Under the pieces are notes generated by a model that made no database searches, was not told where the DNA came from, and was given only the letters and a program-made list of their open reading frames with translations. The position numbers were made by a program, and so were the translations under genes. Shown piece by piece: positions 23,153-64,000 of a DNA stretch of 64,000 nt. The number at the start of each line of letters is the position of its first letter. Position 1 is the stretch's first letter. Source of the DNA: Carnobacterium viridans (lineage in GTDB: Bacteria > Bacillota > Bacilli > Lactobacillales > Carnobacteriaceae); the NCBI RefSeq assembly GCF_900102725.1, contig NZ_FNJW01000008.1, positions 2,392,501-2,456,500 of the forward strand, read 5' to 3'.

Positions 23153-23623
23153 ATGACAATAAAAAGTATGAATCTTATAAAAGAAGTTCCCATTCAATCA
23201 AGGCCTAGAGAAAGACTAGAGCAATATGGTGAGAAAGCTCTTGCTAACCACGAATTGCTTGCTATCTTGCTTAGAACAGGAACAAAAGGAACAAATGTTG
23301 TTACGTTAGCGTTATCCATGCTCAATCAGTTTGAAGATCTCTATTATTTGAAGACAGCCTCTTGTCAAGAGCTGATGACAGTTGCTGGGATTGGGAGAAT
23401 CAAAGCAATTGAATTAAAAGCAGCAATTGAATTAGGTCTTCGTATTTCGCAAGCCTCTCAAATCAAAATAGGACAAATTACTTCTAGTACGAAAGCAGGA
23501 GAAATGTTGCTTTTAGAAATGCGTGGTCTGCAACAAGAACATCTAGTCGTTCTTTACTTAAATACAAAAAATGAAATTATTAAAAAAGAAACTATTTTTA
23601 TTGGAGGACTTAATTCTAGTATA
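23153..23623 (+). pseudogene. radC: DNA repair protein RadC, cut by prophage insertion
   Basis: The first 157 codons encode the RadC N-terminus: the SRPRERLEQYG segment, a helix-hairpin-helix (MTVAGIGRIKAIELKAAIELG) and the start of the JAB/MPN domain up to GGLNSSI. The prophage begins here, so the metal-binding HxHPSGDP segment is lost from this side. The frame runs on for 57 foreign residues to 23,797, antisense to the integrase gene. The missing 3' end should lie beyond the window at attR. Confidence 0.93.
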
Positions 23624-23642
23624 AGCAATCCTTTTAGCTATA
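23600..23642. other. attL: radC-prophage left junction
   Basis: Sequence to the left encodes RadC. From T23617 onward (TAGTATAAGCAATCC) the sequence is identical to the site at 57,806. The first shared bases, TA/AG, therefore include the crossover point of the serine integrase. Confidence 0.85.
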
Positions 23643-25026
23643 AATTCCAAACTATGTCTAATTGTTCGCCATTTACAGTGATAGTATCAACAAACGTGTC
23701 CATTATTTTTATTTTTGCTAATGTATTTTCTTCTTCCCAATTAAAATCATTTAGATTTTTTAAAGACTCTTGTATAACTTTTTCATCCTTTTTATAATCT
23801 ATTTCATTTAAAAGTAAGTCTAAGTTAATTTTTTGCACATTTAATTTTTCAATGCGTCCGTTTATTTTTTCAGGTGTTATTGATCCGAATTGAAATAATT
23901 CGATTAGTTTTTCTATTTGATTATCAATGGATTTTATTTCTTTTTTTATCGTTGACCTTTTTTCGATATCACCATTTTTTTCTGGAACAGTCAAATCTTT
24001 CAAAGTTAGTTTTTTTAATCTTTCAATAACTCGATTTTCTAACTGTTCTACGTTATATCTATTATTATCGCATTTTCTATCTTTAATTAGTTTTGGAGAA
24101 CTCCAATTTTTAGAGGAACAAGCATATTTAATGTATCGATACTTTTTGCTGCCGGTAACTTGTCTATAGTATTTTGCACCACATTTACCACAATACAACT
24201 TACCATTCAATAATCCCTTTTGTTCGTGGCCAGAGTAGTTATAAAGTATTCTGCTATCTCTTATTTTTTGAGCAGCATTGAAAGTTTCTTCATCAACAAT
24301 TGATTCGTGTTGTCCGTCGTGTATTTCTCCAGCAAAAGTTACTTTACCAATATAGAGCGGGTTAGAGAGTACACCTTTAATTTTAGTTCTTGTAGTTACT
24401 TGTTCTGGATATTTGTCGTGCAGTTCCATAACTATTTGACGAACACCTTTCTTTTGGAGATATAGACTATATATTTCTTTTACCACCATAGCTTCAAATT
24501 CATTTACTATTAACATATGATCTATATAATCGTATCCAAGTGGCGTAAAATTACCGCCTCCATGATACAAACCCGTTTTCGCTCTCTCTACACGACCCAT
24601 CGTTAAACGTTCTGTAATCGTATCTCTTTCGAGTTGTGCGAACACAGATAAAATACCAATCATAGCACGTCCGAAAGAAGAGGTAGTGTCGAACGATTCG
24701 CTCATTGAAACAAAGTTAACGTTATTTTTTAGAAACACATCTTCAATTAAATAAAGAGTATGCTTTTGAGAACGGGAAAGTCTATCTAATTTATAAACAA
24801 GAATAATGTCTAATTTGTTATTTTTAATATCTTCAATCATACTTTGGAGACCTGGTCTGTCTAGTTTTGCACCACTATGTCCAGGATCTATATATTTTGC
24901 TACTAAGTTGTAATCTTTTGCTAAAGCAAAGTTAGTTAGCCTTTCTTCTTGTGCTTGTAAAGAGTAACCTTCTTTAACTTGCTCAAATGTGGAAACTCTT
25001 AAATAGATACCAGCCCTTAATTTCAT
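23638..25026 (-). CDS. int: Large serine recombinase (phage integrase), copy 1
   Basis: 462 residues. The N-terminal resolvase domain has the nucleophile Ser12 in YLRVSTFEQ, the YKLDRLSRS motif and the ERDTITERL helix. A recombinase domain, a zinc ribbon (CGKCG... CSSK) and a coiled-coil stretch near the C-terminus follow. Such enzymes join attP to attB without host factors and need a separate directionality factor for excision. Its stop lies 21 bp from the core, as expected. GGAGG precedes the ATG. The target is radC. Confidence 0.96.
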   Translation of the reverse strand: MKLRAGIYLRVSTFEQVKEGYSLQAQEERLTNFALAKDYNLVAKYIDPGHSGAKLDRPGLQSMIEDIKNNKLDIILVYKLDRLSRSQKHTLYLIEDVFLKNNVNFVSMSESFDTTSSFGRAMIGILSVFAQLERDTITERLTMGRVERAKTGLYHGGGNFTPLGYDYIDHMLIVNEFEAMVVKEIYSLYLQKKGVRQIVMELHDKYPEQVTTRTKIKGVLSNPLYIGKVTFAGEIHDGQHESIVDEETFNAAQKIRDSRILYNYSGHEQKGLLNGKLYCGKCGAKYYRQVTGSKKYRYIKYACSSKNWSSPKLIKDRKCDNNRYNVEQLENRVIERLKKLTLKDLTVPEKNGDIEKRSTIKKEIKSIDNQIEKLIELFQFGSITPEKINGRIEKLNVQKINLDLLLNEIDYKKDEKVIQESLKNLNDFNWEEENTLAKIKIMDTFVDTITVNGEQLDIVWNL

Positions 25027-25109
25027 TTATTTTTCCTCCAATATATGATAAAATTAAGCAAAGCAAATAGCACCGTATGACAGCGTGGCATTTTGCATAA
25101 TATTATGGT

Positions 25110-25154
25110 GAACACCACTTTCGCTTTGGTCGGGGAGAGTGGTGTTCTTTTTTT
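25110..25154 (+). terminator. Plus-strand terminator antisense to the lysogeny cluster
   Basis: GAACACCACT (25110-25119) pairs perfectly with AGTGGTGTTC (25138-25147), then T7. The T-tract is only on the plus strand, but no plus-strand gene lies upstream; the neighbours are all on the minus strand. It may end a short RNA starting near 25,050 or reads coming from radC. Confidence 0.7.
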
Positions 25155-25157
25155 ATA

Positions 25158-26126: not shown

Positions 26127-26471
26127 TTATTTAATTTTGCCTTCCCAACCTATACCTAAATTATACTTTTCTAAAACACTCGAATAATTGAATTGTCCTT
26201 CACATTCATTTATCAAGTATTTAATCATAAACTTAGTTGCTTCGTTTTCCATTTTAGAACGGTATGATTTATTGCTATATAAAGAAGCTAAATCCTTATG
26301 ATTAAGAACATGTCCTAATTCATGAAGGATGACCTCTTTTTGTTTTTCCTCATCTAATAGTTGATTAATGAAAATGATATTTAGAGCAGGATCATAATAT
26401 CCATTGCTCTCAATACTTATCAAAACTAACTCAATGTTATTTAGTTCAAGTAAATCAAAGACGCTATCCAT
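26127..26471 (-). CDS. ImmA/IrrE family metallo-endopeptidase, copy 1
   Basis: About 114 residues with the zinc motif HELGH in EVILHELGHVLNHKD. ImmA-type proteases cleave or antagonise the phage repressor encoded next to them, giving induction after DNA damage; here the repressor gene lies 10 bp upstream in the same operon. The start at 26,471 is chosen for GAGGG just upstream; an in-frame start 21 codons earlier would overlap the repressor gene. Confidence 0.85.
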   Translation of the reverse strand: MDSVFDLLELNNIELVLISIESNGYYDPALNIIFINQLLDEEKQKEVILHELGHVLNHKDLASLYSNKSYRSKMENEATKFMIKYLINECEGQFNYSSVLEKYNLGIGWEGKIK

Positions 26472-26481
26472 ATATTTTCCC

Positions 26482-26802
26482 TCACTTATCGCTAAATCTT
26501 CCTTCAAGATAAGCACGAATTGACTCTCTATCATTTTCAGTCATAGGTTTTCCGTCAAAACTCATCATGCCGTCTAAAACTTTATCTAAATCAGTAGGCA
26601 ACGTAACTTTAGTATCTTTTCCTCGTAGGTAGTCAACTGAAACATCAAAGTAATCAGCCACTTTTTCTATATTCTCTAATTTTGGAGAAGCAGTATCCCA
26701 TCTTCTAATTTGTCCATTAGATAAACCTACGTGTCTTTCAACCTCCGCAAAAGTCGTTTTATGACTATCGCACAATATTTTTATTCTGTCTACTATTCCC
26801 AT
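26482..26802 (-). CDS. cI-like repressor (XRE family), copy 1
   Basis: 106 residues. An N-terminal helix-turn-helix (TTFAEVERHVGLSNGQIRRW, residues about 16-35) and the VADYFDVSVDYLRGKDT segment are typical of XRE-type phage repressors. There is no C-terminal LexA-type peptidase domain, in keeping with a partner ImmA protease. Likely binds the AGCT-centred repeats at 26,839-27,043. The ATG at 26,802 follows AAAGG. Confidence 0.88.
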   Translation of the reverse strand: MGIVDRIKILCDSHKTTFAEVERHVGLSNGQIRRWDTASPKLENIEKVADYFDVSVDYLRGKDTKVTLPTDLDKVLDGMMSFDGKPMTENDRESIRAYLEGRFSDK

Positions 26803-26859
26803 GGTTATCACCTTTCAAAGGCTCACGAAAATAAATATTAACTTTTAAGCTATTTTAGT

Positions 26860-28732: not shown

Positions 28733-28933
28733 ATGTTTGAAGAATTACCACGATTTTTATTAGATCCACCAGAAGACAGACCCATCGCATTTGATTGGAA
28801 TCAATCAGAAATTTATCCAGGTGATGAAGTTTATACAATCATGGAAGAAACCGGAAAAGTAGTCCTAGTGTTAAAAGAGGACTTGGAAAATTATATTGAA
28901 AATCAATTTGGGGAAGCGGAGGTTATGCAGTAA
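28733..28933 (+). CDS. Early phage protein, unknown, copy 1
   Basis: 66 acidic residues (FEELPRFLLDPPEDRP) with a YPGDEVYTIMEETGKVVL core that looks like a small beta-rich domain. GGCGG lies upstream; the stop overlaps the Gp157 start by one base. Confidence 0.6.
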   Translation: MFEELPRFLLDPPEDRPIAFDWNQSEIYPGDEVYTIMEETGKVVLVLKEDLENYIENQFGEAEVMQ

Positions 28934-29409
28934 TGAATTTATACAAACTAACACAAAACTATCAAAATGTACTAGAAATTGCTGAACAATTAGATGCTGA
29001 AACGTTAAAAGACACACTAGATTCAATTGACGAAGCTATTAATGACAAAGTTGAAAACACTGCTTACGTGATTAAACAATTAGGTGCAAATGTAGATGCT
29101 TATGCAAGTGAAATTAAACGGATGCAAGCTGCTAAGTCAGCGATGGAAAACAATGCTAAAAACTTAAAACTTTACATCCAAGAGTCAATGGAAAAAGTTG
29201 GATTGGACAAGGTGCAAGGCAAATTAATCAAAGTGGCCATCCAGAAAAACCAGCCAAGTGTAGTGGTAACTGATGAAAAGAAACTATCTAAGTATTTCAT
29301 TGAACAGCCGCCACAATTGAATAAAACGATCCTTAAAGAAGATTTGAATAATGGCGTAAAAGTAGACGGTGCTGAGTTACAAAGCACTAGAAGTATTCGG
29401 ATTAGATAA
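28933..29409 (+). CDS. Siphovirus Gp157 family protein, copy 1
   Basis: 158 residues with the pattern of Siphovirus Gp157: N-terminal MNLYKLTQNYQNVLEIAEQ, central coiled coil (YASEIKRMQAAKSAMENNAK) and C-terminal beta part (KVAIQKNQPSVVV). The family is encoded beside phage recombination/replication ATPases and has been linked to phage resistance in streptococci. Precedes the AAA ATPase by 15 bp. Confidence 0.85.
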   Translation: MNLYKLTQNYQNVLEIAEQLDAETLKDTLDSIDEAINDKVENTAYVIKQLGANVDAYASEIKRMQAAKSAMENNAKNLKLYIQESMEKVGLDKVQGKLIKVAIQKNQPSVVVTDEKKLSKYFIEQPPQLNKTILKEDLNNGVKVDGAELQSTRSIRIR

Positions 29410-29424: not shown

Positions 29425-30111
29425 TTGGAAGTAATGAAAGCAACCGATATTAAAAAATATCAAAATTGGTCATGCATTATTTATTCCGAACCAGGCATAG
29501 GTAAAACAACCATGATTAAATCATTAACTGGTAAAACGATTGTGTTTTCTATCGATGGCATGTATCAAGTTCTTCACAATTTGGAGAACGTTGACATCAT
29601 AACAATGGACGCACAAGAACCAAATAAAGAATTAGGTAACTTTTACCGCTTTGTTGTAAAGAACAAAGACGAGTATGACAACATCGTAATCGATAACTTA
29701 TCAACGTTCCAAAAGTTCTGGTTAAATGCACAAGCAACATTATCCAAAAGCGGCATGCCAGAAATAAAAGATTATGGAGTAATCGATAGAGTGCTACTTG
29801 ATTTCATCGCAAGCTTCAAAAAACTTAAAAAAAATCTATTGTTTTTTGCACACGAAAAGAAAGTTGAAATCACGCGAGAAAGTGGCGGAGTATATACCCA
29901 ATTTCAACCAGATATTCGCAACCTTGACGCAATTATGGGAATTGTTCCTATTGTGGGGCGCATGGTCATTATGAAAGAACCAGAAACACAAAAAAGAAAA
30001 AGAGTCATCGTACTCCAGCCTACTCAATCGACTAGGGCTAAAGATCAACTTATTGGAAACCTACAAACGATTGATCAATTAGAATTGTTACCAACTTTAC
30101 AAAAAAACTAA
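29425..30111 (+). CDS. Phage AAA family ATPase / nucleotide-binding protein, copy 1
   Basis: 228 residues. Walker A is SEPGIGKTT near residues 21-29, and a Walker B-like VIDNLSTFQKFW follows. It belongs to the phage nucleotide-binding AAA group found with Gp157 and DUF669 in Firmicute phages, probably a recombination/replication loader. Start is TTG with GGGAGG upstream. The second copy of this gene is frameshifted at its Walker A codons. Confidence 0.87.
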   Translation: MEVMKATDIKKYQNWSCIIYSEPGIGKTTMIKSLTGKTIVFSIDGMYQVLHNLENVDIITMDAQEPNKELGNFYRFVVKNKDEYDNIVIDNLSTFQKFWLNAQATLSKSGMPEIKDYGVIDRVLLDFIASFKKLKKNLLFFAHEKKVEITRESGGVYTQFQPDIRNLDAIMGIVPIVGRMVIMKEPETQKRKRVIVLQPTQSTRAKDQLIGNLQTIDQLELLPTLQKN

Positions 30112-31207: not shown

Positions 31208-33046
31208 ATGCAAGTGGGAGAAATAGTTTTTGACAAATCAAGAAAAAATCTAAAAAAAATATATGATCGCATCCGTTCCAAAAGTTTAGCAAAGCATGTT
31301 GGAAAAGAAGAAGTGCTATTTCTGGCCATGGGCGGCTATAACCGAACTTATGAATTAATGCGCGAATTAGGTTTAGAAAAAGATGATATCGCTACATTTT
31401 CAAACTTAAACCTAACACAAAATTTCTTAATGGAAACACACGAAAAAAAACTGATCCTTATTCAAAAAATAAACTATACAACCAGCATAAACAAAAATAC
31501 GTCTTTTACTTTAAAGAAACTAGATTTGAACGTAGCGGATGGTTTTGAAGAAAGTATGCTTATTTATAAAAATGCTGAAAGAACACTTGGGCAAAAAATA
31601 ACTAATCGCCTAACTTGGCAGAAGCCAGCTATTGTTATATTGGACGACCCTTCTCTTAACCTTCAATACGAAGGGCATAGGTTTCGTTATCAAAATGAAA
31701 TAGGTTTCGTCCAAACTCGTAACCCGAACGCAGACCCCAAATTAATAGTAGCTGAAATAGAACAAGTTGAAGCTGCTGATCGTATGATGTTTGCTTTGTA
31801 CCAACAAAACGTATCAACAGAAACAGAAATGGTAGAAGCTTTGGCACGTTTGAGTGGTTCAGTTCAAATAAAAATCGAAACAAACTGGTATATGAAGCCT
31901 ACACAATACAAACAAGTTGTCGGTTCGCAAGACCTCGCAACTACCTTAAAAGAAACGACAGAAATCGGCATTTATCAATTAAACAAAAACAAAAAGATAG
32001 GTAAAGAAAACGCGCGATGGATTGTAATACCTGAATCTGCATTCTTCTTTAATGGATTCAATTACATGGATGAAGAAGATTTATTTGCAGAAGAACTAAA
32101 AAATGAAGAAGATGCAGAGTCTAAACATGAGAAAGAACAAGAACTCCTACTACAAGACGTTTTATCAACAACTATGCCATTCAACATCCAAACTGGTTAC
32201 GTTACAAGCCAAATGAACAACAGTCCTTCTGAGAGCCTTAAATCGTTCTTGGCAGACGTTGACGAAATAGAAGAACAAAAGGTACATGGAGTAGAACTTC
32301 TTTTAGGAGCAACAACCGAAGAAGAATACAAACACATAAAAAAACACAACCTTGCTTATTTCTTAGATGGTTCTTATCGAAACGATGACCGAAAAGACTC
32401 CAATTATCAAGGTGGTAAAAGACTTATTTCAATAGATGTGGATGATGGCGAATATACAAGGGAAGAAATCGAGAAGAAACTAGAACTACAAGACTTCTTT
32501 GGAATCATTTACCCAACAGCTAAATATTACTTTGACAATTCTAAAAGATGGAGAATCATCCTTATTGCAGATACAGAAATGTCTAAAGAAGATTACAAAA
32601 ACACAGTTGAAGGTGTAGCAGCACTTTTGGATTTAGAAATAGACAATGCTAGCAAAAAGCTTTCTCAATTAATGGGTTATCCACTAGTTCAATCCCACGT
32701 ATCAACTGTAATTGGTGGTTTTGTAAATGTTTCTCAATTTGCTAAAGAAAAACCATTGGCTCAAAAATATGCAAATGTGTATGACATTAAGCCGAAAAGC
32801 AATAAATCACTAATGGATTTCAATCATGATCAAGCTAGAATCGTACACGAAATAATGAATGGTGGTTTACGAGAAGGTGAGCGTAACGAAAAATATCGTC
32901 AAGCTTACATGTTCTTACGTGACACACTAAGTAATCCAGAATTAGAACAATGGCATACAGAAGCTTCCGAACTAATCAATGCAACTCGTTCGCAGGCATC
33001 GGCAGACGGACTACCTGAAAAAGAAGTGGAGGCGATTTACCGATGA
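31208..33046 (+). CDS. Putative archaeo-eukaryotic-type primase with unknown N-terminal half
   Basis: 612 residues. Around residues 403-500 the pattern RLISIDVDDG (Asp410/Asp412), RWRIILIAD and DNASKKLSQLMGYPLV resembles the metal-binding hhDhD motif and the following conserved blocks of AEP-superfamily primases. The first ~400 residues match nothing I recognise, apart from an acidic region near 300-335. The stop overlaps the helicase start (ATGA), showing coupled expression. Likely primes phage DNA synthesis; the alternative is a replication initiator binding the upstream GTTACAA repeats. Confidence 0.6.
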   Translation: MQVGEIVFDKSRKNLKKIYDRIRSKSLAKHVGKEEVLFLAMGGYNRTYELMRELGLEKDDIATFSNLNLTQNFLMETHEKKLILIQKINYTTSINKNTSFTLKKLDLNVADGFEESMLIYKNAERTLGQKITNRLTWQKPAIVILDDPSLNLQYEGHRFRYQNEIGFVQTRNPNADPKLIVAEIEQVEAADRMMFALYQQNVSTETEMVEALARLSGSVQIKIETNWYMKPTQYKQVVGSQDLATTLKETTEIGIYQLNKNKKIGKENARWIVIPESAFFFNGFNYMDEEDLFAEELKNEEDAESKHEKEQELLLQDVLSTTMPFNIQTGYVTSQMNNSPSESLKSFLADVDEIEEQKVHGVELLLGATTEEEYKHIKKHNLAYFLDGSYRNDDRKDSNYQGGKRLISIDVDDGEYTREEIEKKLELQDFFGIIYPTAKYYFDNSKRWRIILIADTEMSKEDYKNTVEGVAALLDLEIDNASKKLSQLMGYPLVQSHVSTVIGGFVNVSQFAKEKPLAQKYANVYDIKPKSNKSLMDFNHDQARIVHEIMNGGLREGERNEKYRQAYMFLRDTLSNPELEQWHTEASELINATRSQASADGLPEKEVEAIYR

Positions 33047-34512
33047 AACCTTTTACGCAATCTTTAGAATCAAATATCAAACAAACATTTACCTATTCTC
33101 ATGCAAAAAACAAGTACAACTATGAAGGCCGGGCAGAGGGATACGATTCTCTGTCTTTCTTCAAAAGAATGTTAGTGCAAAAAAATCCTTTTCAAATACT
33201 GATGGATTTGGATCGAGTAGCTTTTAAACGCGCTAAACAAATCATTTTAACTCACGAAATACCTTATACACCAAAACAAGAAGAACAAGCTCGCATTTAT
33301 CATGAAGTAACTGAACGTATGCAAAAGGATAGAAGTGATATCGTACCGATGTATCAAGAAAATTTAGAAGGAACAGGCGTAGTTATTTACAAAGAACCCT
33401 TCTTTTTAACAACAGTCGAAACAATCAAGCTTCATGACATCATCAACCATATGCCGAAGTCACAAAAGACGCATAACGTCGTATATGAACATCGTTTATC
33501 TAAACAAATATCGTCGTCAAAAGAACAACTTAACGCCTTGCAGAAATGTTTATCAAATCAAACATCTGTATTAATTGGTGGAGCAGGAACAGGAAAAAGT
33601 TTTGTAACAGCCGAAATTATTAAGCAACTACAAGCGAACGGAAAAAATGTTTCTGTACTTGCACCAACTCACAAAGCGAAAGAAGCACTACAAGATAAGA
33701 TAGGCACGACTTCAACCGTCCGTACTATTCATTCATTCGTACACAAGCCAAATGATTGCGATGCAATTGTGATAGATGAAAGCGGCATGTTGTCAACACC
33801 ACTACTTTTAAAACTGCTGAACCATCACACGACTGAACAATTGATATTCGTTGGTGATAAAAACCAACTGCCGCCAATCGAATATGGCAGACCTTTTGAA
33901 CGTATTCAAAAACTGTTCCCAACAAGTGAATTAAAAGAAAATAAACGATCAGAATCAGCTGACATTATCGCATTAGGCCGTGAAATACTAGGTATTCCTC
34001 AAAACGCAAACATGAGAATGCCAAACATTGCTTTAGTTTCTTCAATATCTGAAGCACATGCACAAGGTGCGGAAGTTGTGCTTTCGTTCATGAATAACAC
34101 TGTTAAACAAATAAATGAAGAACGAAAAATAAAGAATGGTATTCAAACACTTTCTCCATTATTTTCAGTCGGCGATAAAATCATCGCAACAACAAACGAA
34201 GCTGGACGATTCTACAATGGTCAACTATTTAAAATTACACATCCAAATCGTGCAGTCAATCAAAAAACAAACGTGCCTATCATATTCCGTTCCAGAAAAG
34301 ACTTGGAACACAACTTTTCACTTGCTTACGGTCTAACCATCCACAAATCACAAGGAAGTGAATGGGACGTAGTAGCTTATCAACCAAGTTCTTATGACAC
34401 ACAGAATTTAGCTTATGTTGCTGTAACTCGTGCTAAAAAACGTCTTATCATCATTGGAAATGACATAAAGAACGAGTACAAAAAAGACAAAGATTGGAGC
34501 CAACTCGTTTGA
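33043..34512 (+). CDS. SF1 DNA helicase, RecD-like
   Basis: 489 residues. Walker A is GGAGTGKS (residues 179-186), followed by VLAPTHKAKEAL (motif Ia), IVIDESGM (motif II, Asp245/Glu246), FVGDKNQLPPIE (motif III), LTIHKSQGSEWD (motif V) and YVAVTRAKKRLIIIG (motif VI). These are SF1B/RecD-type signatures. The first ~150 residues are a separate region. Partner of the primase-like protein encoded immediately upstream. Confidence 0.9.
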   Translation: MKPFTQSLESNIKQTFTYSHAKNKYNYEGRAEGYDSLSFFKRMLVQKNPFQILMDLDRVAFKRAKQIILTHEIPYTPKQEEQARIYHEVTERMQKDRSDIVPMYQENLEGTGVVIYKEPFFLTTVETIKLHDIINHMPKSQKTHNVVYEHRLSKQISSSKEQLNALQKCLSNQTSVLIGGAGTGKSFVTAEIIKQLQANGKNVSVLAPTHKAKEALQDKIGTTSTVRTIHSFVHKPNDCDAIVIDESGMLSTPLLLKLLNHHTTEQLIFVGDKNQLPPIEYGRPFERIQKLFPTSELKENKRSESADIIALGREILGIPQNANMRMPNIALVSSISEAHAQGAEVVLSFMNNTVKQINEERKIKNGIQTLSPLFSVGDKIIATTNEAGRFYNGQLFKITHPNRAVNQKTNVPIIFRSRKDLEHNFSLAYGLTIHKSQGSEWDVVAYQPSSYDTQNLAYVAVTRAKKRLIIIGNDIKNEYKKDKDWSQLV

Positions 34513-39316: not shown

Positions 39317-39347
39317 TATACCCTACCACCTAAAAGGAAGTGACCCC

Positions 39348-45648: not shown

Positions 45649-45650
45649 TC

Positions 45651-50699: not shown

Positions 50700-51625
50700 G
50701 TGGGTTTATATTTAATGGAAAACATATTAATGAAGAATTTCCAAATTTAAAATTAGTTGAACGTTCTACACCACCTCCTGAAGATATTCCAATTAAAGAT
50801 TCTGTTATCGGTATGCAAGGAGACTATGATTTTACAATTGCTTTGTTTGGCGAACGGCTATACGAAAATAGAGAACTAATTTTTGTTTTTAACGGTAAAG
50901 AACTAAACAATAGCAATAAAACTTTTAATAAAAGAATGTTAGAAAACTGGTTATTAAGTGGAAGTTATATGCCATTATATGACGACAAAGAGCATATGCA
51001 TTATTATATGGCGAGGTGCGTAGATGTTAAATTAGAAAGCGATGATGGGATACTTAAAGCTCCTTACACGCTAACGTTCGATGCTTATCCGTTTAAAATA
51101 AAAAAAACAATTGAAGGTAGTCCGTATTGGGATGATTACGATGTGTCTGATTATTATCAAAAAACTAGTTTTGAATTAAGGAGAACGACATTTAAATCAT
51201 TACCAATCGGTGAAGTTGGAACCATTGGAGCATGGTCCACTCAATATGATGGGTTTGAGAGCATAGCGAAACAATTATTAGGCCAATCTTATACAATTAC
51301 TGATAAAAGAACAACAAGCCAATCTGTTAGTAGTTACTCTTATTATTTAAGTGGTTTAAATAAGTGGGTAATCGAACAAGATATTGTTCAAACACAGAAT
51401 GGCGCACAAAAAATTGATTTATTTAATAACGGAGTAGCTTCAATTATTCCTAAAGTTACAGCGACTGGACCAATCACGATCATTCGTGGCAATGAGGTGT
51501 TTAATTTATTTACTGGTGTAACAGAATCTGATCTTTTTAGAATAAATGTCGGATACAACCATTTAGTTGTTGCTAGCGGAACTGCAGCGGACATTAAAAT
51601 TGAAATGCACAAGGAAGTGATTTAA
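50696..51625 (+). CDS. Distal tail protein (Dit)
   Basis: 309 residues. The N-terminal half (FIFNGKHINEEFPNLKLVER, LFGERLYENRELIFVF) is the Dit hub domain found after the tape measure gene in siphoviruses; the C-terminal half is a beta domain. Starts in an ATGA overlap with the tape measure stop. Forms the baseplate hub. Confidence 0.9.
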   Translation: MSGFIFNGKHINEEFPNLKLVERSTPPPEDIPIKDSVIGMQGDYDFTIALFGERLYENRELIFVFNGKELNNSNKTFNKRMLENWLLSGSYMPLYDDKEHMHYYMARCVDVKLESDDGILKAPYTLTFDAYPFKIKKTIEGSPYWDDYDVSDYYQKTSFELRRTTFKSLPIGEVGTIGAWSTQYDGFESIAKQLLGQSYTITDKRTTSQSVSSYSYYLSGLNKWVIEQDIVQTQNGAQKIDLFNNGVASIIPKVTATGPITIIRGNEVFNLFTGVTESDLFRINVGYNHLVVASGTAADIKIEMHKEVI

Positions 51626-55957: not shown

Positions 55958-56224
55958 ATGGAAAGTATTTTAACAACATTAATTTTATCAGCAATTGGAG
56001 GAAGCATTGTTGTTTCCGGAATCACAGAAGTTGTGAAGCAAAATAGCAAACTATCAGGCATTTGGGTAATCGTATTTGCTCTCGTGGTAGGCGTGGTTCT
56101 GTTCGGTGCAATTGCTTTGGTATTTGACCTACCACTTGCTGAATCGTTGCTAACTGGATTTTTGACAGGCTGGGCGAGCGTTGGGGCATTTAACTCTTAC
56201 GACCAAACTAAAGGAGGAATTTAA
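55958..56224 (+). CDS. Holin
   Basis: 88 residues, two to three membrane segments (TLILSAIGGSIVVSGITEVV, WVIVFALVVGVVLFGAIALV, LLTGFLTGWASVGAF) and a short polar tail (SYDQTKGGI). Right before the endolysin by 2 bp, so it very likely makes the lysis pore. A118-like by size and layout. Confidence 0.87.
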   Translation: MESILTTLILSAIGGSIVVSGITEVVKQNSKLSGIWVIVFALVVGVVLFGAIALVFDLPLAESLLTGFLTGWASVGAFNSYDQTKGGI

Positions 56225-56226
56225 TC

Positions 56227-57324
56227 ATGGTAGAAATCAAAAAACAACATACAAAAGTAAACTTCACCAATGTAAATATTAAAGTAGAATACATCGTAGA
56301 ACACGATACGGGCGTCCTAGGTCAGACAGCTAAAAATAATGCTGACTATTTTGAAAAGACAAACCGTGGAGCTTCTGCTAATTACTTTGTTGATAAAACA
56401 TCTATTTACGAAGTTGTCCCTCCAGGTAAAAAAGCTTGGCATGTTGGTGACGACCGTGATGATTCTGACGATGGTATCAACAACGGCAATACTATTGGTA
56501 TTGAGTTGTGTGCTGAGAAAGATGGTACTTTCCACCCAAATACATTAGCAAACGCTGCTTGGTTGACTCAGAAACTTATGAAAGATTACAATGTACCAGC
56601 TAAAAAAGTAGTTCGCCATTATGATGCTTCTGGTAAAAATTGCCCGCAAAGAATGAACACTGATGGAAAATGGACATTGTGGTATAAGTACCACAAACAA
56701 TTAACAGGAGCTACATCTGTATCTGTCCCTTTACCTTCAAATAACACTAAGGAATCACAGCATACCGTTAAATCTGGCGATACTCTTTGGGGATTGTCTA
56801 AACAGTATAATGCAACTGTTGCTGACTTGAAGAAATGGAACAACCTTAAATCTGATATTATTGTTGTAGGCACTAAATTAAATTTAGGAAATAACGTTAA
56901 AGTGCCTACTGCAAATCCTACACCTGTTGCAAGTACTCCAAAAGCTACCAAATCTATTCAACAACTTGTCAATGAAACCAAAGCCGGTAAACATGGTAAT
57001 GGAGATGCGCGCAAGAAATCATTAGGTTCCAACTATGATGCAGTAATGAAAGTTATCAACGGTGGCTCAAAACCTGCAGCTAAACCAGTCACTAATAAAA
57101 AACGTGTCTATCTTCCCAAATCAGCTAAAACGTGGAGAGTTTACAAAACTTCAGGACCATATACTACTGGTAAAGAAGTTGGATTCTTAGCACCAGCACA
57201 ATATGGCGGTTTGAATTATGAAATCATTAAAGCATTAGCTACTGATGTTTATGAAATTAAAACAAGTGCATTTGGCAACGTAGCAATCTATGCTGCTAAA
57301 TCTACTGGAGCAACAATTAAATAA
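56227..57324 (+). CDS. Endolysin: amidase with LysM, CW_7-like and SH3-like modules
   Basis: 365 residues. An N-terminal N-acetylmuramoyl-L-alanine amidase (Amidase_2) with zinc His in YIVEHDTG, WHVGD and VVRHYDASGKNCPQ; LysM at about 177-220 (HTVKSGDTLWGLSKQYNATV); a CW_7-like repeat around 245-278 (VNETKAGKHGNGDARKKSLG); and an SH3-like tail from about 290. Three binding modules of different types are unusual. Cuts the stem peptide from MurNAc. AAGGAGG precedes the ATG. Confidence 0.93.
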   Translation: MVEIKKQHTKVNFTNVNIKVEYIVEHDTGVLGQTAKNNADYFEKTNRGASANYFVDKTSIYEVVPPGKKAWHVGDDRDDSDDGINNGNTIGIELCAEKDGTFHPNTLANAAWLTQKLMKDYNVPAKKVVRHYDASGKNCPQRMNTDGKWTLWYKYHKQLTGATSVSVPLPSNNTKESQHTVKSGDTLWGLSKQYNATVADLKKWNNLKSDIIVVGTKLNLGNNVKVPTANPTPVASTPKATKSIQQLVNETKAGKHGNGDARKKSLGSNYDAVMKVINGGSKPAAKPVTNKKRVYLPKSAKTWRVYKTSGPYTTGKEVGFLAPAQYGGLNYEIIKALATDVYEIKTSAFGNVAIYAAKSTGATIK

Positions 57325-57365
57325 ATTCTAAAGTGGTCGAAATCGACCAGTTATGAAAAGTAAGT

Positions 57366-57403
57366 ATAACCCTATCTCTTAATTGAGGTAGGGTTATTTT
57401 TTT
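57366..57403 (+). terminator. Terminator of late genes
   Basis: ATAACCCTA pairs with TAGGGTTAT, partly extended inward, followed by T7. It lies between the endolysin gene and the convergent minus-strand gene. Confidence 0.88.
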
Positions 57404-57405
57404 GC

Positions 57406-57648
57406 TCAAAATTCGTCAAAAAAGTCTTCTACAGATTTTATTTTTTCTAAATACTCATTAATCATTAAGTCAGCAAAATATTGAGCTTCATCGATAGTTC
57501 TGAAAGGATAGGTAGATAAATCTTTTTCGTAACTAATATTTACATATGGCGATTTTATAACGGATATAAAAGCCTCTATCTTTAATCCTTCATGTTTAAA
57601 ACATACTATTCTTAAATCTGGTGGTAAAAATTCTACAAATACCTTCAT
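57406..57648 (-). CDS. Prophage-end gene, unknown (possible moron)
   Basis: 80 residues, beta-rich then acidic helix (MKVFVEFLPPDLRIVCFKHE, TIDEAQYFADLMINEYLEKI). It lies on the opposite strand to the late genes, between endolysin and attachment site, where lysogenic-conversion genes are common. AAAAGGAG precedes the ATG. Family unknown. Confidence 0.65.
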   Translation of the reverse strand: MKVFVEFLPPDLRIVCFKHEGLKIEAFISVIKSPYVNISYEKDLSTYPFRTIDEAQYFADLMINEYLEKIKSVEDFFDEF

Positions 57649-57715
57649 TTAAGATTCTCCTTTTAAATGTGATACTTACAATATACGCAGATTAATTTGA
57701 ATGATTTATTTTTGT

Positions 57716-57785
57716 TATAATTTATTCATCATCCTACTCGTTAAAGTTTAGAACTTACTAGTTACTATAGTAGGTTCTTTTTTTA
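57716..57785 (+). ncRNA. Candidate ~60-nt RNA beside the attachment site
   Basis: A perfect TATAAT (57716-57721) with a weak TTAATT 18 bp upstream would start RNA near 57,728. A strong terminator follows: AGAACTTACTA (57750-57760) with TAGTAGGTTCT (57768-57778) and T6. No reading frame is present. Confidence 0.4.
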
Positions 57786-57830
57786 TCGCTCAATGGATTG
57801 GCAATTAGTATAAGCAATCCTTTTAGCTAT
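57786..57830. other. attP-like junction between prophage copies
   Basis: Joins the prophage right end to its left end. GGATTG (57795-57800) and CAATCC (57815-57820) are inverted around 57,807/57,808, and identity with attL starts at T57806, one base away. That agrees with a serine-integrase crossover at the TA or AG there. Confidence 0.82.
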
Positions 57831-59215
57831 AAATTCCAAACTATGTCTAATTGTTCGCCATTTACAGTGATAGTATCAACAAACGTGTCCATTATTTTTA
57901 TTTTTGCTAATGTATTTTCTTCTTCCCAATTAAAATCATTTAGATTTTTTAAAGACTCTTGTATAACTTTTTCATCCTTTTTATAATCTATTTCATTTAA
58001 AAGTAAGTCTAAGTTAATTTTTTGCACATTTAATTTTTCAATGCGTCCGTTTATTTTTTCAGGTGTTATTGATCCGAATTGAAATAATTCGATTAGTTTT
58101 TCTATTTGATTATCAATGGATTTTATTTCTTTTTTTATCGTTGACCTTTTTTCGATATCACCATTTTTTTCTGGAACAGTCAAATCTTTCAAAGTTAGTT
58201 TTTTTAATCTTTCAATAACTCGATTTTCTAACTGTTCTACGTTATATCTATTATTATCGCATTTTCTATCTTTAATTAGTTTTGGAGAACTCCAATTTTT
58301 AGAGGAACAAGCATATTTAATGTATCGATACTTTTTGCTGCCGGTAACTTGTCTATAGTATTTTGCACCACATTTACCACAATACAACTTACCATTCAAT
58401 AATCCCTTTTGTTCGTGGCCAGAGTAGTTATAAAGTATTCTGCTATCTCTTATTTTTTGAGCAGCATTGAAAGTTTCTTCATCAACAATTGATTCGTGTT
58501 GTCCGTCGTGTATTTCTCCAGCAAAAGTTACTTTACCAATATAGAGCGGGTTAGAGAGTACACCTTTAATTTTAGTTCTTGTAGTTACTTGTTCTGGATA
58601 TTTGTCGTGCAGTTCCATAACTATTTGACGAACACCTTTCTTTTGGAGATATAGACTATATATTTCTTTTACCACCATAGCTTCAAATTCATTTACTATT
58701 AACATATGATCTATATAATCGTATCCAAGTGGCGTAAAATTACCGCCTCCATGATACAAACCCGTTTTCGCTCTCTCTACACGACCCATCGTTAAACGTT
58801 CTGTAATCGTATCTCTTTCGAGTTGTGCGAACACAGATAAAATACCAATCATAGCACGTCCGAAAGAAGAGGTAGTGTCGAACGATTCGCTCATTGAAAC
58901 AAAGTTAACGTTATTTTTTAGAAACACATCTTCAATTAAATAAAGAGTATGCTTTTGAGAACGGGAAAGTCTATCTAATTTATAAACAAGAATAATGTCT
59001 AATTTGTTATTTTTAATATCTTCAATCATACTTTGGAGACCTGGTCTGTCTAGTTTTGCACCACTATGTCCAGGATCTATATATTTTGCTACTAAGTTGT
59101 AATCTTTTGCTAAAGCAAAGTTAGTTAGCCTTTCTTCTTGTGCTTGTAAAGAGTAACCTTCTTTAACTTGCTCAAATGTGGAAACTCTTAAATAGATACC
59201 AGCCCTTAATTTCAT
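57827..59215 (-). CDS. int: Large serine recombinase, copy 2
   Basis: Identical protein to the integrase at 23,638. In copy 2 it borders the attP-like junction rather than radC, so in a true tandem lysogen two integrase genes are present. Confidence 0.95.
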   Translation of the reverse strand: MKLRAGIYLRVSTFEQVKEGYSLQAQEERLTNFALAKDYNLVAKYIDPGHSGAKLDRPGLQSMIEDIKNNKLDIILVYKLDRLSRSQKHTLYLIEDVFLKNNVNFVSMSESFDTTSSFGRAMIGILSVFAQLERDTITERLTMGRVERAKTGLYHGGGNFTPLGYDYIDHMLIVNEFEAMVVKEIYSLYLQKKGVRQIVMELHDKYPEQVTTRTKIKGVLSNPLYIGKVTFAGEIHDGQHESIVDEETFNAAQKIRDSRILYNYSGHEQKGLLNGKLYCGKCGAKYYRQVTGSKKYRYIKYACSSKNWSSPKLIKDRKCDNNRYNVEQLENRVIERLKKLTLKDLTVPEKNGDIEKRSTIKKEIKSIDNQIEKLIELFQFGSITPEKINGRIEKLNVQKINLDLLLNEIDYKKDEKVIQESLKNLNDFNWEEENTLAKIKIMDTFVDTITVNGEQLDIVWNL

Positions 59216-59298
59216 TTATTTTTCCTCCAATATATGATAAAATTAAGCAAAGCAAATAGCACCGTATGACAGCGTGGCATTTTGCATAATATTATGGT

Positions 59299-59343
59299 GA
59301 ACACCACTTTCGCTTTGGTCGGGGAGAGTGGTGTTCTTTTTTT
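59299..59343 (+). terminator. Plus-strand terminator, copy 2
   Basis: Same GAACACCACT/AGTGGTGTTC stem and T7 as at 25,110. Here reads coming from the endolysin side or from the RNA near 57,728 would be antisense to the integrase gene. Confidence 0.65.
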
Positions 59344-59346
59344 ATA

Positions 59347-59979
59347 TTAATGTAAGTTAATTAATTCTGTTTCAGTTCCAAAAGCGCCAGTAGCAACTTC
59401 TAATTGTGTTTTTGTAGAGTTTGCTTGTTCTTCAGAAATATCAAATACAATTTTTCCTTGCATTTCAATATCAGGATTTAAGTTTTCTAAGAAGAAAGAG
59501 TTTGTAATTTGTCCATCGTCTCCTTGATTAGCAGACATAGAACCCGCAGCATCTGCTTCAAAACTTTTATCACCTTCTTTTAATTTGAAGAAAGAACTAT
59601 CAACCATTACAGCTTCGTTTCCGTTATTTTTAACTGTTAAATCCACAATCAAGAAAGTTCCTTTAGCTTCTGTAGGCATGATGCTTGGACCAACTGATTT
59701 GCTAACTTCCAATCCATTAACTGTATATTCCATATCTCCAACGGTCACTACATCGCCAACTTTAAATGTTGGTTCTTCTTTAGCTGGAGTTGATTCAGTT
59801 GTTTCTTTTGTATCAGCAGCAGTCGTGTCAGATGTAGTTTCTTCTCCGCCTAAACCTCCACCAATAGCAGCTACAACAATAACAGCTAAAACCCAGAACC
59901 AAACTTTCTTATAAAAAGGTTTTTTTAATTTACCTTTCACTTCATTACCGTGTTCGTCAAACAATTTCTTCTTCGCCAT
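59347..59979 (-). CDS. Membrane-anchored DUF4352-type protein, copy 2
   Basis: Identical 210-residue product to that at 25,158: membrane anchor, Thr/Glu-rich linker and external beta-sandwich. Confidence 0.8.
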   Translation of the reverse strand: MAKKKLFDEHGNEVKGKLKKPFYKKVWFWVLAVIVVAAIGGGLGGEETTSDTTAADTKETTESTPAKEEPTFKVGDVVTVGDMEYTVNGLEVSKSVGPSIMPTEAKGTFLIVDLTVKNNGNEAVMVDSSFFKLKEGDKSFEADAAGSMSANQGDDGQITNSFFLENLNPDIEMQGKIVFDISEEQANSTKTQLEVATGAFGTETELINLH

Positions 59980-60048
59980 TTTTCATTCCTCCAATGTATA
60001 TGTATTTTTTATTACCCCTGCTGATTGGCAACCGGCAGGGATATTTTT

Positions 60049-60252
60049 TTATTTTTTAAACAAGTCAAATATTGAGAATGTTGTCTTTTTGTAAACTGCA
60101 TTATAAGCAGCTTTCTTAGGATCTTTAATCCATCCAGAACCTTTTTTACCATAGAAAGGAATGACTGATTTTTTAATTGCTCTTTTAGCCCTGCTAGTAG
60201 TTCGAGCTCTAATCAATTTCTTTAAACTTGGTTTACGCATTCCGAACTTCAT
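60049..60252 (-). CDS. Small basic phage protein, copy 2
   Basis: Identical to the 67-residue product at 25,860. Unknown function. Confidence 0.65.
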   Translation of the reverse strand: MKFGMRKPSLKKLIRARTTSRAKRAIKKSVIPFYGKKGSGWIKDPKKAAYNAVYKKTTFSIFDLFKK

Positions 60253-60315
60253 TTGATCGCTCCTTTTTATGTAATGATTTCATTATAACGCATGTACCAA
60301 TTATAATGTTACCTT

Positions 60316-60660
60316 TTATTTAATTTTGCCTTCCCAACCTATACCTAAATTATACTTTTCTAAAACACTCGAATAATTGAATTGTCCTTCACATTCATTT
60401 ATCAAGTATTTAATCATAAACTTAGTTGCTTCGTTTTCCATTTTAGAACGGTATGATTTATTGCTATATAAAGAAGCTAAATCCTTATGATTAAGAACAT
60501 GTCCTAATTCATGAAGGATGACCTCTTTTTGTTTTTCCTCATCTAATAGTTGATTAATGAAAATGATATTTAGAGCAGGATCATAATATCCATTGCTCTC
60601 AATACTTATCAAAACTAACTCAATGTTATTTAGTTCAAGTAAATCAAAGACGCTATCCAT
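60316..60660 (-). CDS. ImmA/IrrE family metallo-endopeptidase, copy 2
   Basis: Identical to the product at 26,127, with HELGH intact. Start chosen as for copy 1. Confidence 0.85.
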   Translation of the reverse strand: MDSVFDLLELNNIELVLISIESNGYYDPALNIIFINQLLDEEKQKEVILHELGHVLNHKDLASLYSNKSYRSKMENEATKFMIKYLINECEGQFNYSSVLEKYNLGIGWEGKIK

Positions 60661-60670
60661 ATATTTTCCC

Positions 60671-60991
60671 TCACTTATCGCTAAATCTTCCTTCAAGATA
60701 AGCACGAATTGACTCTCTATCATTTTCAGTCATAGGTTTTCCGTCAAAACTCATCATGCCGTCTAAAACTTTATCTAAATCAGTAGGCAACGTAACTTTA
60801 GTATCTTTTCCTCGTAGGTAGTCAACTGAAACATCAAAGTAATCAGCCACTTTTTCTATATTCTCTAATTTTGGAGAAGCAGTATCCCATCTTCTAATTT
60901 GTCCATTAGATAAACCTACGTGTCTTTCAACCTCCGCAAAAGTCGTTTTATGACTATCGCACAATATTTTTATTCTGTCTACTATTCCCAT
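60671..60991 (-). CDS. cI-like repressor, copy 2
   Basis: Identical to the product at 26,482. Two repressor genes would raise repressor dose and could change induction threshold in a double lysogen; that is inference. Confidence 0.88.
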   Translation of the reverse strand: MGIVDRIKILCDSHKTTFAEVERHVGLSNGQIRRWDTASPKLENIEKVADYFDVSVDYLRGKDTKVTLPTDLDKVLDGMMSFDGKPMTENDRESIRAYLEGRFSDK

Positions 60992-61027
60992 GGTTATCAC
61001 CTTTCAAAGGCTCACGAAAATAAATAT

Positions 61028-61232
61028 TAACTTTTAAGCTATTTTAGTTTGACAAATAACTTTTAAGCTATTATACTATGTTCATAAGCTAGTTTGTTAG
61101 CTAATAAGTTATCGACATTTTTTTAACACGTTCCCCAACGTTGTTGTTATGGTCGTTTTGCGCTTATTTGCTATGGGTTTATATTAGCATAAAAGCTATT
61201 TACGGTCAATCATTAGCTTACAAATTAGCTTA
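61028..61232. promoter_or_regulatory. Lysis-lysogeny operator region, copy 2
   Basis: Same repeats and facing promoters as at 26,839-27,043 (TTGACA at 61,049, TATACT at 61,072). Confidence 0.75.
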
Positions 61233-61265
61233 TTTTTCTTAATTTATTTTTAGGAGGTTGTAGAG

Positions 61266-61457
61266 ATGCCAGAAACACAAGCTTTGAGAAGTAAGATTTT
61301 AAATCATTTAGAAGAACACACTATTCCGCAAAGACACTTAGCTATGTTGATAGACGAAAATCCTCAATATTTAAGCGAAGTTTTAAACGGAAAAAAAACA
61401 GGTCCAAAAGCAAATGTAATGTTACTGACAATAGTTAAAGTCTTGGGGGTCAAATAA
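61266..61457 (+). CDS. Cro-like small regulator, copy 2
   Basis: Identical to the 63-residue product at 27,077. Confidence 0.75.
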   Translation: MPETQALRSKILNHLEEHTIPQRHLAMLIDENPQYLSEVLNGKKTGPKANVMLLTIVKVLGVK

Positions 61458-61471
61458 GGAGGTTTTGTACC

Positions 61472-61627
61472 GTGGCAACTAAAACAAAAAAGAAAGAAAT
61501 AAATTTTATCATAACGGACTATGACAAAAACGGAAACGTTATTAAGGATTTATCAAAAGTGGTTGTTCCGCTTGAAATGCAGCTAGAACTATTGAAAGAA
61601 TTAAATAATTTGAGGAGAAGGAGATGA
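61472..61627 (+). CDS. Small early phage protein, copy 2
   Basis: Same as 27,283-27,438, 51 residues, GTG start. Confidence 0.6.
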   Translation: MATKTKKKEINFIITDYDKNGNVIKDLSKVVVPLEMQLELLKELNNLRRRR

Positions 61628-61631
61628 TCAC

Positions 61632-61787
61632 ATGTCCCTAGAAACAATCAAAAAGTTAATCTGGTCCTCGAATATGTTCTTCTTTGGGAGCAAGAGGATA
61701 GACAAGAATAGTTTCTACTGGTTTTACGGATTCATCACCGCTTGCTTCATGATGTTAGTTTTGTTGGTTGATGTGTGGGTTATATGA
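61632..61787 (+). CDS. Small single-pass membrane protein, copy 2
   Basis: Same as 27,443-27,598, 51 residues with one C-terminal membrane segment. Confidence 0.6.
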   Translation: MSLETIKKLIWSSNMFFFGSKRIDKNSFYWFYGFITACFMMLVLLVDVWVI

Positions 61788-61799
61788 GAGGAGAAAAAT

Positions 61800-62018
61800 A
61801 TGTATCCAACTAGACGCTTTGTTATAAAAATAGGAGGTTCTTTTGTAACCGAAATAGAAGTGATTGGTTTCACTAGAAAAGGTAATGAATTTATAGGCAC
61901 ATACAAACACAAAGTTAGCCAAAACACAGCTAAAATATTTAAAGCTAACGGTGAATCAACTTATTCTGAAGTTAAAAGTATAGCAGATGGAGTTAACGGC
62001 GTACTAATAGAACTGTAA
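61800..62018 (+). CDS. Early phage protein, unknown, copy 2
   Basis: Identical to the 72-residue product at 27,611. Confidence 0.6.
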   Translation: MYPTRRFVIKIGGSFVTEIEVIGFTRKGNEFIGTYKHKVSQNTAKIFKANGESTYSEVKSIADGVNGVLIEL

Positions 62019-62032
62019 AGGAGGAAAAAATA

Positions 62033-62209
62033 ATGAGTGTAAAACATATTAGTTCAGAAGACGTAGCGATGGTTATTGAAGGAATTTTATATGGTGATGA
62101 TTCAGGATTCGAAAGCGTGTTAGAAAATGGATTCAACGAACTTGAAGCATTTGCAGAAAAGATGAGAGAAGCTAACAAAACATATACAATAGCTACTTTT
62201 GATAATTAG
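62033..62209 (+). CDS. Small acidic early phage protein, copy 2
   Basis: Same as 27,844-28,020, 58 residues. Confidence 0.6.
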   Translation: MSVKHISSEDVAMVIEGILYGDDSGFESVLENGFNELEAFAEKMREANKTYTIATFDN

Positions 62210-62220
62210 GAGGTTCACAA

Positions 62221-62355
62221 GTGTTTTATGTAATTAGTAAAGATTTACCCACAGTCGCCATGTTCGTTCAGATAAGCCGAGCATATGCGTTCAGAAAGAC
62301 GTTACTAGACAAAGGTTTAGTAGCAATCGTGATACAGACTGACAAGGAGGAATAA
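62221..62355 (+). CDS. Very small early phage protein, copy 2
   Basis: Same as 28,032-28,166, 44 residues, GTG start. Confidence 0.5.
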   Translation: MFYVISKDLPTVAMFVQISRAYAFRKTLLDKGLVAIVIQTDKEE

Positions 62356-62358
62356 ACG

Positions 62359-62595
62359 ATGACAATTGGAGAATTAAAAGAGCTTTTAAAAGACAGTGAA
62401 GATATAGACGTGGTACTTGTGGAAATTGGTGGTAGTAGATTGACCGGAGGAGATATTCGTGTTGTGGATGGCGCTGAAAAAATAACTGAAAAAGGATTTG
62501 CTATATTTTGTAATTCTGTTGAACCTACAGAAGAAGAAATAGAAGATTGGAAATTTATCCATAAATCTTTAGTTATCAAGGAGGAAAACAATTGA
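62359..62595 (+). CDS. Early phage protein, paralogue of 37,223 gene, copy 2
   Basis: Identical to the 78-residue product at 28,170. Confidence 0.65.
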   Translation: MTIGELKELLKDSEDIDVVLVEIGGSRLTGGDIRVVDGAEKITEKGFAIFCNSVEPTEEEIEDWKFIHKSLVIKEENN

Positions 62596-62846
62596 CATAC
62601 AAACTAAACGGAATCAATTATACAGAAATGTTGGTGACGGATGAAGAGTTGGCGGTGGTTAGGGCGATGAGAGAAAAGGATGCAAAAATAAACGTATTCG
62701 TAAATCGTAAGAACGAAAAAGAAGCTGTGGAATATGCGAATAGTTTTCCTAAAGTAGATGAAGCACTATCTGTAGCCGGCAGTGATTTCTTTTATAGCTC
62801 TAATGTAAAAACGGGTGTTTTTGCTAATTACGAAAAAAAAGACTAA
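62592..62846 (+). CDS. Early phage protein, unknown, copy 2
   Basis: Identical to the 84-residue product at 28,403; TTGA overlap retained. Confidence 0.6.
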   Translation: MTYKLNGINYTEMLVTDEELAVVRAMREKDAKINVFVNRKNEKEAVEYANSFPKVDEALSVAGSDFFYSSNVKTGVFANYEKKD

Positions 62847-62921
62847 AAGGATCCCACTCCAATTAGTCCGATACGTTAATAAGTTACCCATAGTTTACCA
62901 CATGAAAGGCGGTAAATAAAT

Positions 62922-63122
62922 ATGTTTGAAGAATTACCACGATTTTTATTAGATCCACCAGAAGACAGACCCATCGCATTTGATTGGAATCAATCAGAAA
63001 TTTATCCAGGTGATGAAGTTTATACAATCATGGAAGAAACCGGAAAAGTAGTCCTAGTGTTAAAAGAGGACTTGGAAAATTATATTGAAAATCAATTTGG
63101 GGAAGCGGAGGTTATGCAGTAA
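62922..63122 (+). CDS. Early phage protein, unknown, copy 2
   Basis: Identical to the 66-residue product at 28,733. Confidence 0.6.
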   Translation: MFEELPRFLLDPPEDRPIAFDWNQSEIYPGDEVYTIMEETGKVVLVLKEDLENYIENQFGEAEVMQ

Positions 63123-63598
63123 TGAATTTATACAAACTAACACAAAACTATCAAAATGTACTAGAAATTGCTGAACAATTAGATGCTGAAACGTTAAAAG
63201 ACACACTAGATTCAATTGACGAAGCTATTAATGACAAAGTTGAAAACACTGCTTACGTGATTAAACAATTAGGTGCAAATGTAGATGCTTATGCAAGTGA
63301 AATTAAACGGATGCAAGCTGCTAAGTCAGCGATGGAAAACAATGCTAAAAACTTAAAACTTTACATCCAAGAGTCAATGGAAAAAGTTGGATTGGACAAG
63401 GTGCAAGGCAAATTAATCAAAGTGGCCATCCAGAAAAACCAGCCAAGTGTAGTGGTAACTGATGAAAAGAAACTATCTAAGTATTTCATTGAACAGCCGC
63501 CACAATTGAATAAAACGATCCTTAAAGAAGATTTGAATAATGGCGTAAAAGTAGACGGTGCTGAGTTACAAAGCACTAGAAGTATTCGGATTAGATAA
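63122..63598 (+). CDS. Siphovirus Gp157 family protein, copy 2
   Basis: Identical to the 158-residue product at 28,933. Confidence 0.85.
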   Translation: MNLYKLTQNYQNVLEIAEQLDAETLKDTLDSIDEAINDKVENTAYVIKQLGANVDAYASEIKRMQAAKSAMENNAKNLKLYIQESMEKVGLDKVQGKLIKVAIQKNQPSVVVTDEKKLSKYFIEQPPQLNKTILKEDLNNGVKVDGAELQSTRSIRIR

Positions 63599-63613
63599 GG
63601 GAGGTGAGAAAGA

Positions 63614-64000
63614 TTGGAAGTAATGAAAGCAACCGATATTAAAAAATATCAAAATTGGTCATGCATTATTTATTCCGAACCAGGCATAGGTAAAAACAAC
63701 CATGATTAAATCATTAACTGGTAAAACGATTGTGTTTTCTATCGATGGCATGTATCAAGTTCTTCACAATTTGGAGAACGTTGACATCATAACAATGGAC
63801 GCACAAGAACCAAATAAAGAATTAGGTAACTTTTACCGCTTTGTTGTAAAGAACAAAGACGAGTATGACAACATCGTAATCGATAACTTATCAACGTTCC
63901 AAAAGTTCTGGTTAAATGCACAAGCAACATTATCCAAAAGCGGCATGCCAGAAATAAAAGATTATGGAGTAATCGATAGAGTGCTACTTGATTTCATCGC
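63614..64000 (+). pseudogene. Phage AAA ATPase, copy 2, frameshifted and cut by the window end
   Basis: Matches 29,425 onward, but TAAAAC has become TAAAAAC (A5 at 63,692-63,696). Translation from TTG reads SEPGIGKNNHD and stops at 63,709 after 31 residues, inside Walker A. The downstream sequence is otherwise unchanged to the window end, so the change is recent or a sequencing error in a homopolymer. Confidence 0.85.

Follow-up and report, generated by a model that had tools for sequence, protein, structure and literature searches.

An apparent tandem prophage in radC of Carnobacterium viridans, probably one excising prophage joined to its own freed DNA by the assembler

Introduction

Near the end of the chromosome contig of Carnobacterium viridans, a prophage that interrupts radC appears to be followed directly by a second copy of itself. 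This raises the question whether the strain carries two prophages in tandem at one attachment site, or whether one prophage and freed phage DNA were joined during assembly. The window analysed here, meaning the whole stretch of 64,000 nucleotides, corresponds to positions 2,392,501-2,456,500 of the chromosome contig C8, within a genome assembly of nine contigs and 2.76 Mb. The features of the locus are listed in Table 1.

Table 1. Predicted features of the radC prophage locus. Positions refer to the window unless preceded by C8.
Feature	Position	Strand	Basis or remark
radC 5' part, host gene, interrupted by the prophage	23,153-23,616	+	Pfam UPF0758_N, RadC; the frame continues to a stop at 23,797 in phage DNA
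attL core TAGTAT	23,617-23,622	+	Common to attL, attP and attR
Prophage copy 1, complete, 34,189 bp	23,617-57,805	+	att cores at both ends; phage gene order
Large serine recombinase (phage integrase), 462 aa	23,638-25,026	-	Pfam Resolvase, Recombinase, Zn_ribbon_recom; phrog_95 integrase
ImmA/IrrE-type metallopeptidase	26,127-26,534	-	Pfam Peptidase_M78; phrog_87
Repressor-type HTH regulator	26,482-26,811	-	phrog_8 transcriptional regulator, phrog_4 transcriptional repressor
Siphovirus Gp157 / Mu Gam-like protein	28,933-29,409	+	Family match
Sak4-like annealing protein	29,425-30,111	+	phrog_124; site of the sole difference between the copies in the window
Dda/RecD-like helicase	33,043-34,512	+	Family match
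HNH endonuclease, portal, minor head protein, large terminase	39,306-43,195	+	PHROG matches
Scaffold, major head, tail terminator, major tail, tape measure, tail protein	44,293-53,190	+	
Holin and amidase endolysin with LysM, CW_7	55,958-57,324	+	Pfam, PHROG
attP core TAGTAT	57,806-57,811	+	Between the end of copy 1 and the start of copy 2
Copy 2, start	57,806-64,000	+	Runs 3,845 bases beyond the window to the contig end
attR core TAGTAT	C8:10,895-10,900		6-bp core common with attL and attP

Structure of the repeat

The original prediction had described this locus as an exact tandem repeat of a whole prophage with a period of 34,189 bp. Alignment of the two copies confirmed this period, and likewise that the left end of the prophage at 23,617 recurs at 57,806; leftward of both positions the similarity stops. 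Inside the window, the copies align over 6,195 columns up to the last base, with one gap and no mismatches (99.984% identity), so that the word exact fails by a single-base indel. Copy 2 carries an extra A in an A-run, opposite position 29,503 and within the gene of the Sak4-like protein, where the register is shifted. A near-identical repeat of 6 kb is, on this alignment, far above what chance would give.

The claim that the whole prophage is repeated did not hold. Contig C8 comprises 2,460,345 bases, of which the last 10,040 belong to copy 2, and 13,267 bases of any second copy (39%) are found nowhere in C8. The same contig opens with 10,900 bases from the right end of this phage, core included, and then continues into the 3' half of radC. 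Up to where the contig stops, the predicted order attL-phage-attP-phage is correct, and so is the reading of a radC gene split by a serine-integrase prophage; the contig does not establish a two-copy order in the chromosome.

Error pattern of the contig ends

Compared with copy 1, the end piece of C8 has 17 differences in 10,040 bases, all of them in the last 4,153, and the start piece has 17 differences in 10,900 bases, all of them in the first 2,059. Under uniform placement, the chance of such clustering would be 3e-7 for the end piece and 5e-13 for the start piece, values that are indicative only, as their bounds were derived from the data. The whole set of 34 differences consists of single-base indels, with no substitutions, and these indels break two of nine tested frames in the end piece and three of eight in the start piece. 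Judged from the sequence, this is the pattern of thinly covered, unpolished ends of a long-read contig, and it is unlike that of a diverging second prophage. Real divergence between the two copies was ruled out on the grounds that every difference is a one-base indel near a contig end.

The error-free arm measures 5.9 kb beside attP versus 8.8 kb beside attR. The shorter clean arm at attP gives a weak hint that fewer reads may have covered attP than attR; the length of a clean arm is a weak proxy for depth, because the error-affected stretches at the ends of the large contigs C2, C3 and C9 differ widely in length (0.2 to 3.3 kb).

Contigs that repeat their own starts

Of the eight other contigs, six contain their own start sequence more than once, namely C2 (1.28 copies), C3 (1.14), C4 (3.68), C5 (4.21), C7 (8.25) and C9 (1.79), and no such repeat was found in C1 and C6. 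The repeat reaches the last base in five of these six contigs, and in C3 it ends 1,556 bases short. In the three large contigs C2, C3 and C9, the overlaps amount to 12.4, 12.9 and 13.5 kb, respectively, and their differences also cluster near the contig ends, with two substitutions in C3. These three contigs are the cleaner analogues of the ends of C8.

Contigs C4, C5 and C7, with unit sizes of about 6.4, 6.2 and 2.95 kb, lend weaker support, because small plasmids can be truly multimeric, the relative of C4 holds about two units, and the repeats of C5 differ from each other. The nearest public relative of C4 has 12,886 bases, about twice the 6.4-kb unit, and the repeats of C5 differ by 36 substitutions in one self-alignment. 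All three could be true multimers; unless the plasmids are truly multimeric, these multiply written contigs inflate the genome size and the gene counts. Contig C4 had also been read as 1.8 turns of a 12.9-kb plasmid, which was replaced by 3.7 copies of the 6.4-kb unit. Comparison of 20,000 bases each of C4 and C2 with plasmid records gave C. viridans (99.4%) as the best match of C4 and C. inhibens (95.8%) as the best match of C2, and the matches of C2 comprised five Carnobacterium and six Enterococcus records.

A second prophage and its attP junction

A second prophage of about 40 kb is present once in the chromosome contig, at C8:887,866-928,299, with attL and attR, and its att core lies at a tRNA-Leu(GAG) gene. 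Contig C6 (18,496 bases; locus L012) joins C8:921,836-928,299, from the right end of this prophage, to C8:887,866-899,940, from its left end, via a shared stretch of 61 bases (6,424-6,484) that contains the att core, and this junction is the attP of the second prophage. Contig C6 is of poor quality, with 62 gap letters and three substitutions relative to the chromosome. One of these substitutions falls on the single variable base of the core, where C6 has the letter of attR and not that of attL, which can fit a recombination product. Apart from the core base, the clean stretches beside this attP extend over about 2.9 and 1.4 kb, and are shorter than the 5.9 kb at the attP of the radC prophage. 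Plasmid records contained no match to C6. The attP junctions of two prophages are present in one assembly; this suggests that the strain carries at least two prophages that excise.

Among the genes of the second prophage, a 413-aa ORF (L092:6,906-8,147) resembles, by eye, a tyrosine integrase. Near the left end of this prophage, between L090 8,221 and 8,470, there is a palindrome similar to the LexA box of Gram-positive bacteria. An exact search of the window for LexA-type boxes found none.

Origin of the apparent second copy

Serine integrases, together with a directionality factor, recombine attL and attR into attP and attB, which yields a circle and an empty chromosome. It is likely that one prophage resides in radC, that it was excising in the sequenced culture, and that the assembler joined it to freed phage DNA. 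What was seen directly comprises attL, attP and attR, both ends of the contig, the placement of the errors, the self-repeating contigs and the attP contig of the second prophage. The attP junction is present and the contig breaks inside the repeat with low-quality ends, as would be expected of excised phage DNA joined to a lysogen by an assembler. The original prediction offered two readings. The one in which the assembly linked the lysogen with circles or concatemers of phage DNA is favoured, since copy 2 is cut off where the contig ends, its differences are indels near that end, further contigs also run into their own start sequence again, and an attP contig exists for the second prophage; the double lysogen is possible but less favoured.

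The sequence of events could have been as follows. Part of the phage DNA would have been excised as circles, or would have replicated as concatemers, which would place attP reads, derived from excised DNA, beside the attL and attR reads of a single chromosomal copy. On the presumed long-read platform, with reads shorter than the 34-kb phage, the junctions could not have been placed relative to each other. The assembler, if it behaved as we infer, would have taken the path from attL through the phage to attP and come to a halt roughly a read length (10.0 kb) further on, and at the other end of the chromosome the leftward extension from attR would have stopped 10.9 kb inside the same phage. The overlaps of 12.4-13.5 kb in the plasmid contigs are near the lengths of these two phage pieces, as would be expected if both reflect one long read. 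Against the excision of a single prophage, attP reads cannot have been rare, since the assembler left copy 1 by attP rather than by attR, and intact radC, which excision should also yield, is missing from the assembly. The simpler case of a circular chromosome with one prophage, no free phage and a plain overlap of the contig ends was ruled out, as the attP junction would then not exist.

Published assemblies offer close parallels. In Lactobacillus hokkaidonensis LOOC260, sequenced with PacBio and assembled with HGAP, one contig had a misassembled region that was ascribed to an excised circular phage, and the excision was shown by PCR (PMC4377027). Similar to LOOC260, the present case concerns a long-read assembly of a lactic acid bacterium with a contig probably misassembled from excised phage; unlike in LOOC260, with its PCR test, the excision is here deduced from the assembly alone. 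HGAP assemblies often have duplicated, overlapping ends, and phage integration is named among the features that break assemblies, according to a further report (PMC5513972). Similar to the circular molecules in that report, six of the eight other contigs here repeat their starts at their ends. In contrast to such end overlaps, the two end pieces of C8 do not overlap and both stop inside the phage, so that a fork, at attP or attR, is needed as well. An assembly artefact arising from an excised prophage is of a kind already known, and ordinary.

The strongest rival, which we consider unlikely, is a true tandem double lysogen in radC, with the order attL-phage-attP-phage-attR, formed by recombination between the resident prophage and a circular phage, and with an assembly that broke within copy 2 for want of longer reads. 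Such a tandem would produce the same assembly graph, with attL, attP and attR in the proportion 1:1:1. All three junctions do exist, the order in the contig agrees as far as it reaches, and the two end pieces fit within one second copy without overlapping each other. Tandem prophages at one site are also known, for instance in Mycobacterium abscessus, and share with the present locus the phage-att-phage order at one attachment site; in the case described, however, M. abscessus T36 carries two different phages with non-identical att cores, whereas here a perfect repeat runs off the contig end (PMC9934374). Two complete copies between attL and attR were not found, only 10,040 and 10,900 bases at opposite ends of the contig, with 39% of the second copy missing. 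Outside the error-rich contig ends the copies have no differences, and this assembly also contains an attP contig belonging to the second prophage, which is single in the chromosome contig. In addition, a perfect direct repeat of 34 kb is expected to be lost through recombination.

There is a slim chance that the phage leaves radC frequently and persists for a time in circular form while the cell survives, in which case radC would alternate between an on and an off state. Known examples of such active lysogeny are comK of Listeria and hlb of Staphylococcus; here it would make attP reads abundant enough to steer the assembly. It is hardly credible that the junction at 57,806 is a random assembler chimera with no such DNA in the sample, for although it lies within the terminal 10.1 kb of the contig, where misjoins could gather, the join falls exactly at the att core, at the expected crossover and with the expected attP arms, where chance would not place it, and a metagenomic relative (L030) has the same arrangement. 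The junction is very probably real DNA.

With one prophage and freed phage DNA as the preferred reading, the locus serves as a warning that contig ends and excised phage DNA can mimic a tandem prophage in draft genomes from long reads, and that annotation should not count a second copy of this type as a further repressor locus.

Gene content and relatives of the phage

The integrase gene ends at 23,638 and the att core begins at 23,617; the integrase adjoins att. PHROG matches were obtained for 25 of the 29 distinct phage proteins submitted, tail and lysis genes included, and four had none (E limit 1e-3 in one search and 1e-4 in the others). An ORF amid the head and tail genes (50,696-51,625) was without a family match. 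The locus has integrase domains beside att, a short core at which the host gene is restored, and head, tail, lysis and regulatory modules, all of which belong to the description of a temperate siphophage with a large serine integrase. From these features, the prophage is predicted to be a temperate siphophage inserted in radC by its own large serine integrase.

Relatives of the integrase were found in 29 loci of IMG/VR. The nearest, L030 (81%), aligns across the attP of the window in one piece at 76.6%, with its lysin end joined to its integrase end, an arrangement that also speaks for excised phage DNA at the radC locus. The genome_contigs collection yielded seven integrase relatives (best 49%), and within the bacterial family a match at E <=1e-60 was present in 4 of 18 genomes, the own genome included, with identities of 35 to 44% in the other three. 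Integrase identity was below 60% in all 1,211 matching phage records, and the best matches among the 20 of these records listed were Enterococcus phages phiFC1 and EFC-1 and Brochothrix phage BL3, with 45 to 49%. Against the first 24.4 of the 34.2 kb, DNA matches of known phage records cover at most 6%; of the 15 records concerned, 13 are from lactococcal phages, r1t and phiLC3 among them. No exact match to the 26-base attP pattern was present in IMG/VR, from which records of the own genome may be left out. By these comparisons the phage itself appears to be new, and its kind is well known.

A stretch of about 113 bases beside attP (window 57,673-57,785) recurs at 78% close to where the second prophage begins on the left (L090 8,253-8,364), and overlapping parts of 61 and 53 bases are repeated on contigs C2 and C3 (L020 and L021, near 1,501-1,561). 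Judged by eye, this stretch may represent a promoter region and terminator that these elements share. The Rfam search of window 57,000-58,200 gave no match at E <=1, and an 80-aa ORF beside the stretch (57,406-57,648) had neither Pfam nor PHROG matches.

The interrupted radC gene

Joining both host flanks restores an uninterrupted RadC of 230 aa, and radC is whole in all five other Carnobacterium genomes examined. Intact radC, that is, the empty attB, is absent from the nine contigs of the own assembly, from which a minority form would escape. Among loci L023-L071, examined for radC beside relatives of the integrase, it lies there in the own genome only, a weak result, since many of these loci end close to the integrase. 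The literature matches listed for radC as the site of such a prophage included no Carnobacterium case. In two of these sources, bIL285 in Lactococcus sits between ykhD and radC, and a transposon lies within staphylococcal radC (PMC6127208, PMC11769447).

Downstream of the 3' half of radC there are two tandem cspA-like cold-shock regions (L016 2,590-2,945 and 3,117-3,474), which score 71.0 and 66.8 bits with Rfam cspA, under its gathering score of 78. RadC-like paralogues were also found in relatives, at G003:C10:718,409-728,314 and G002:C5:52,916-58,042. In the former genome, two RadC-like paralogues lie less than 10 kb from two adjacent recombinase matches (28 and 30%), and are perhaps located on a mobile island.
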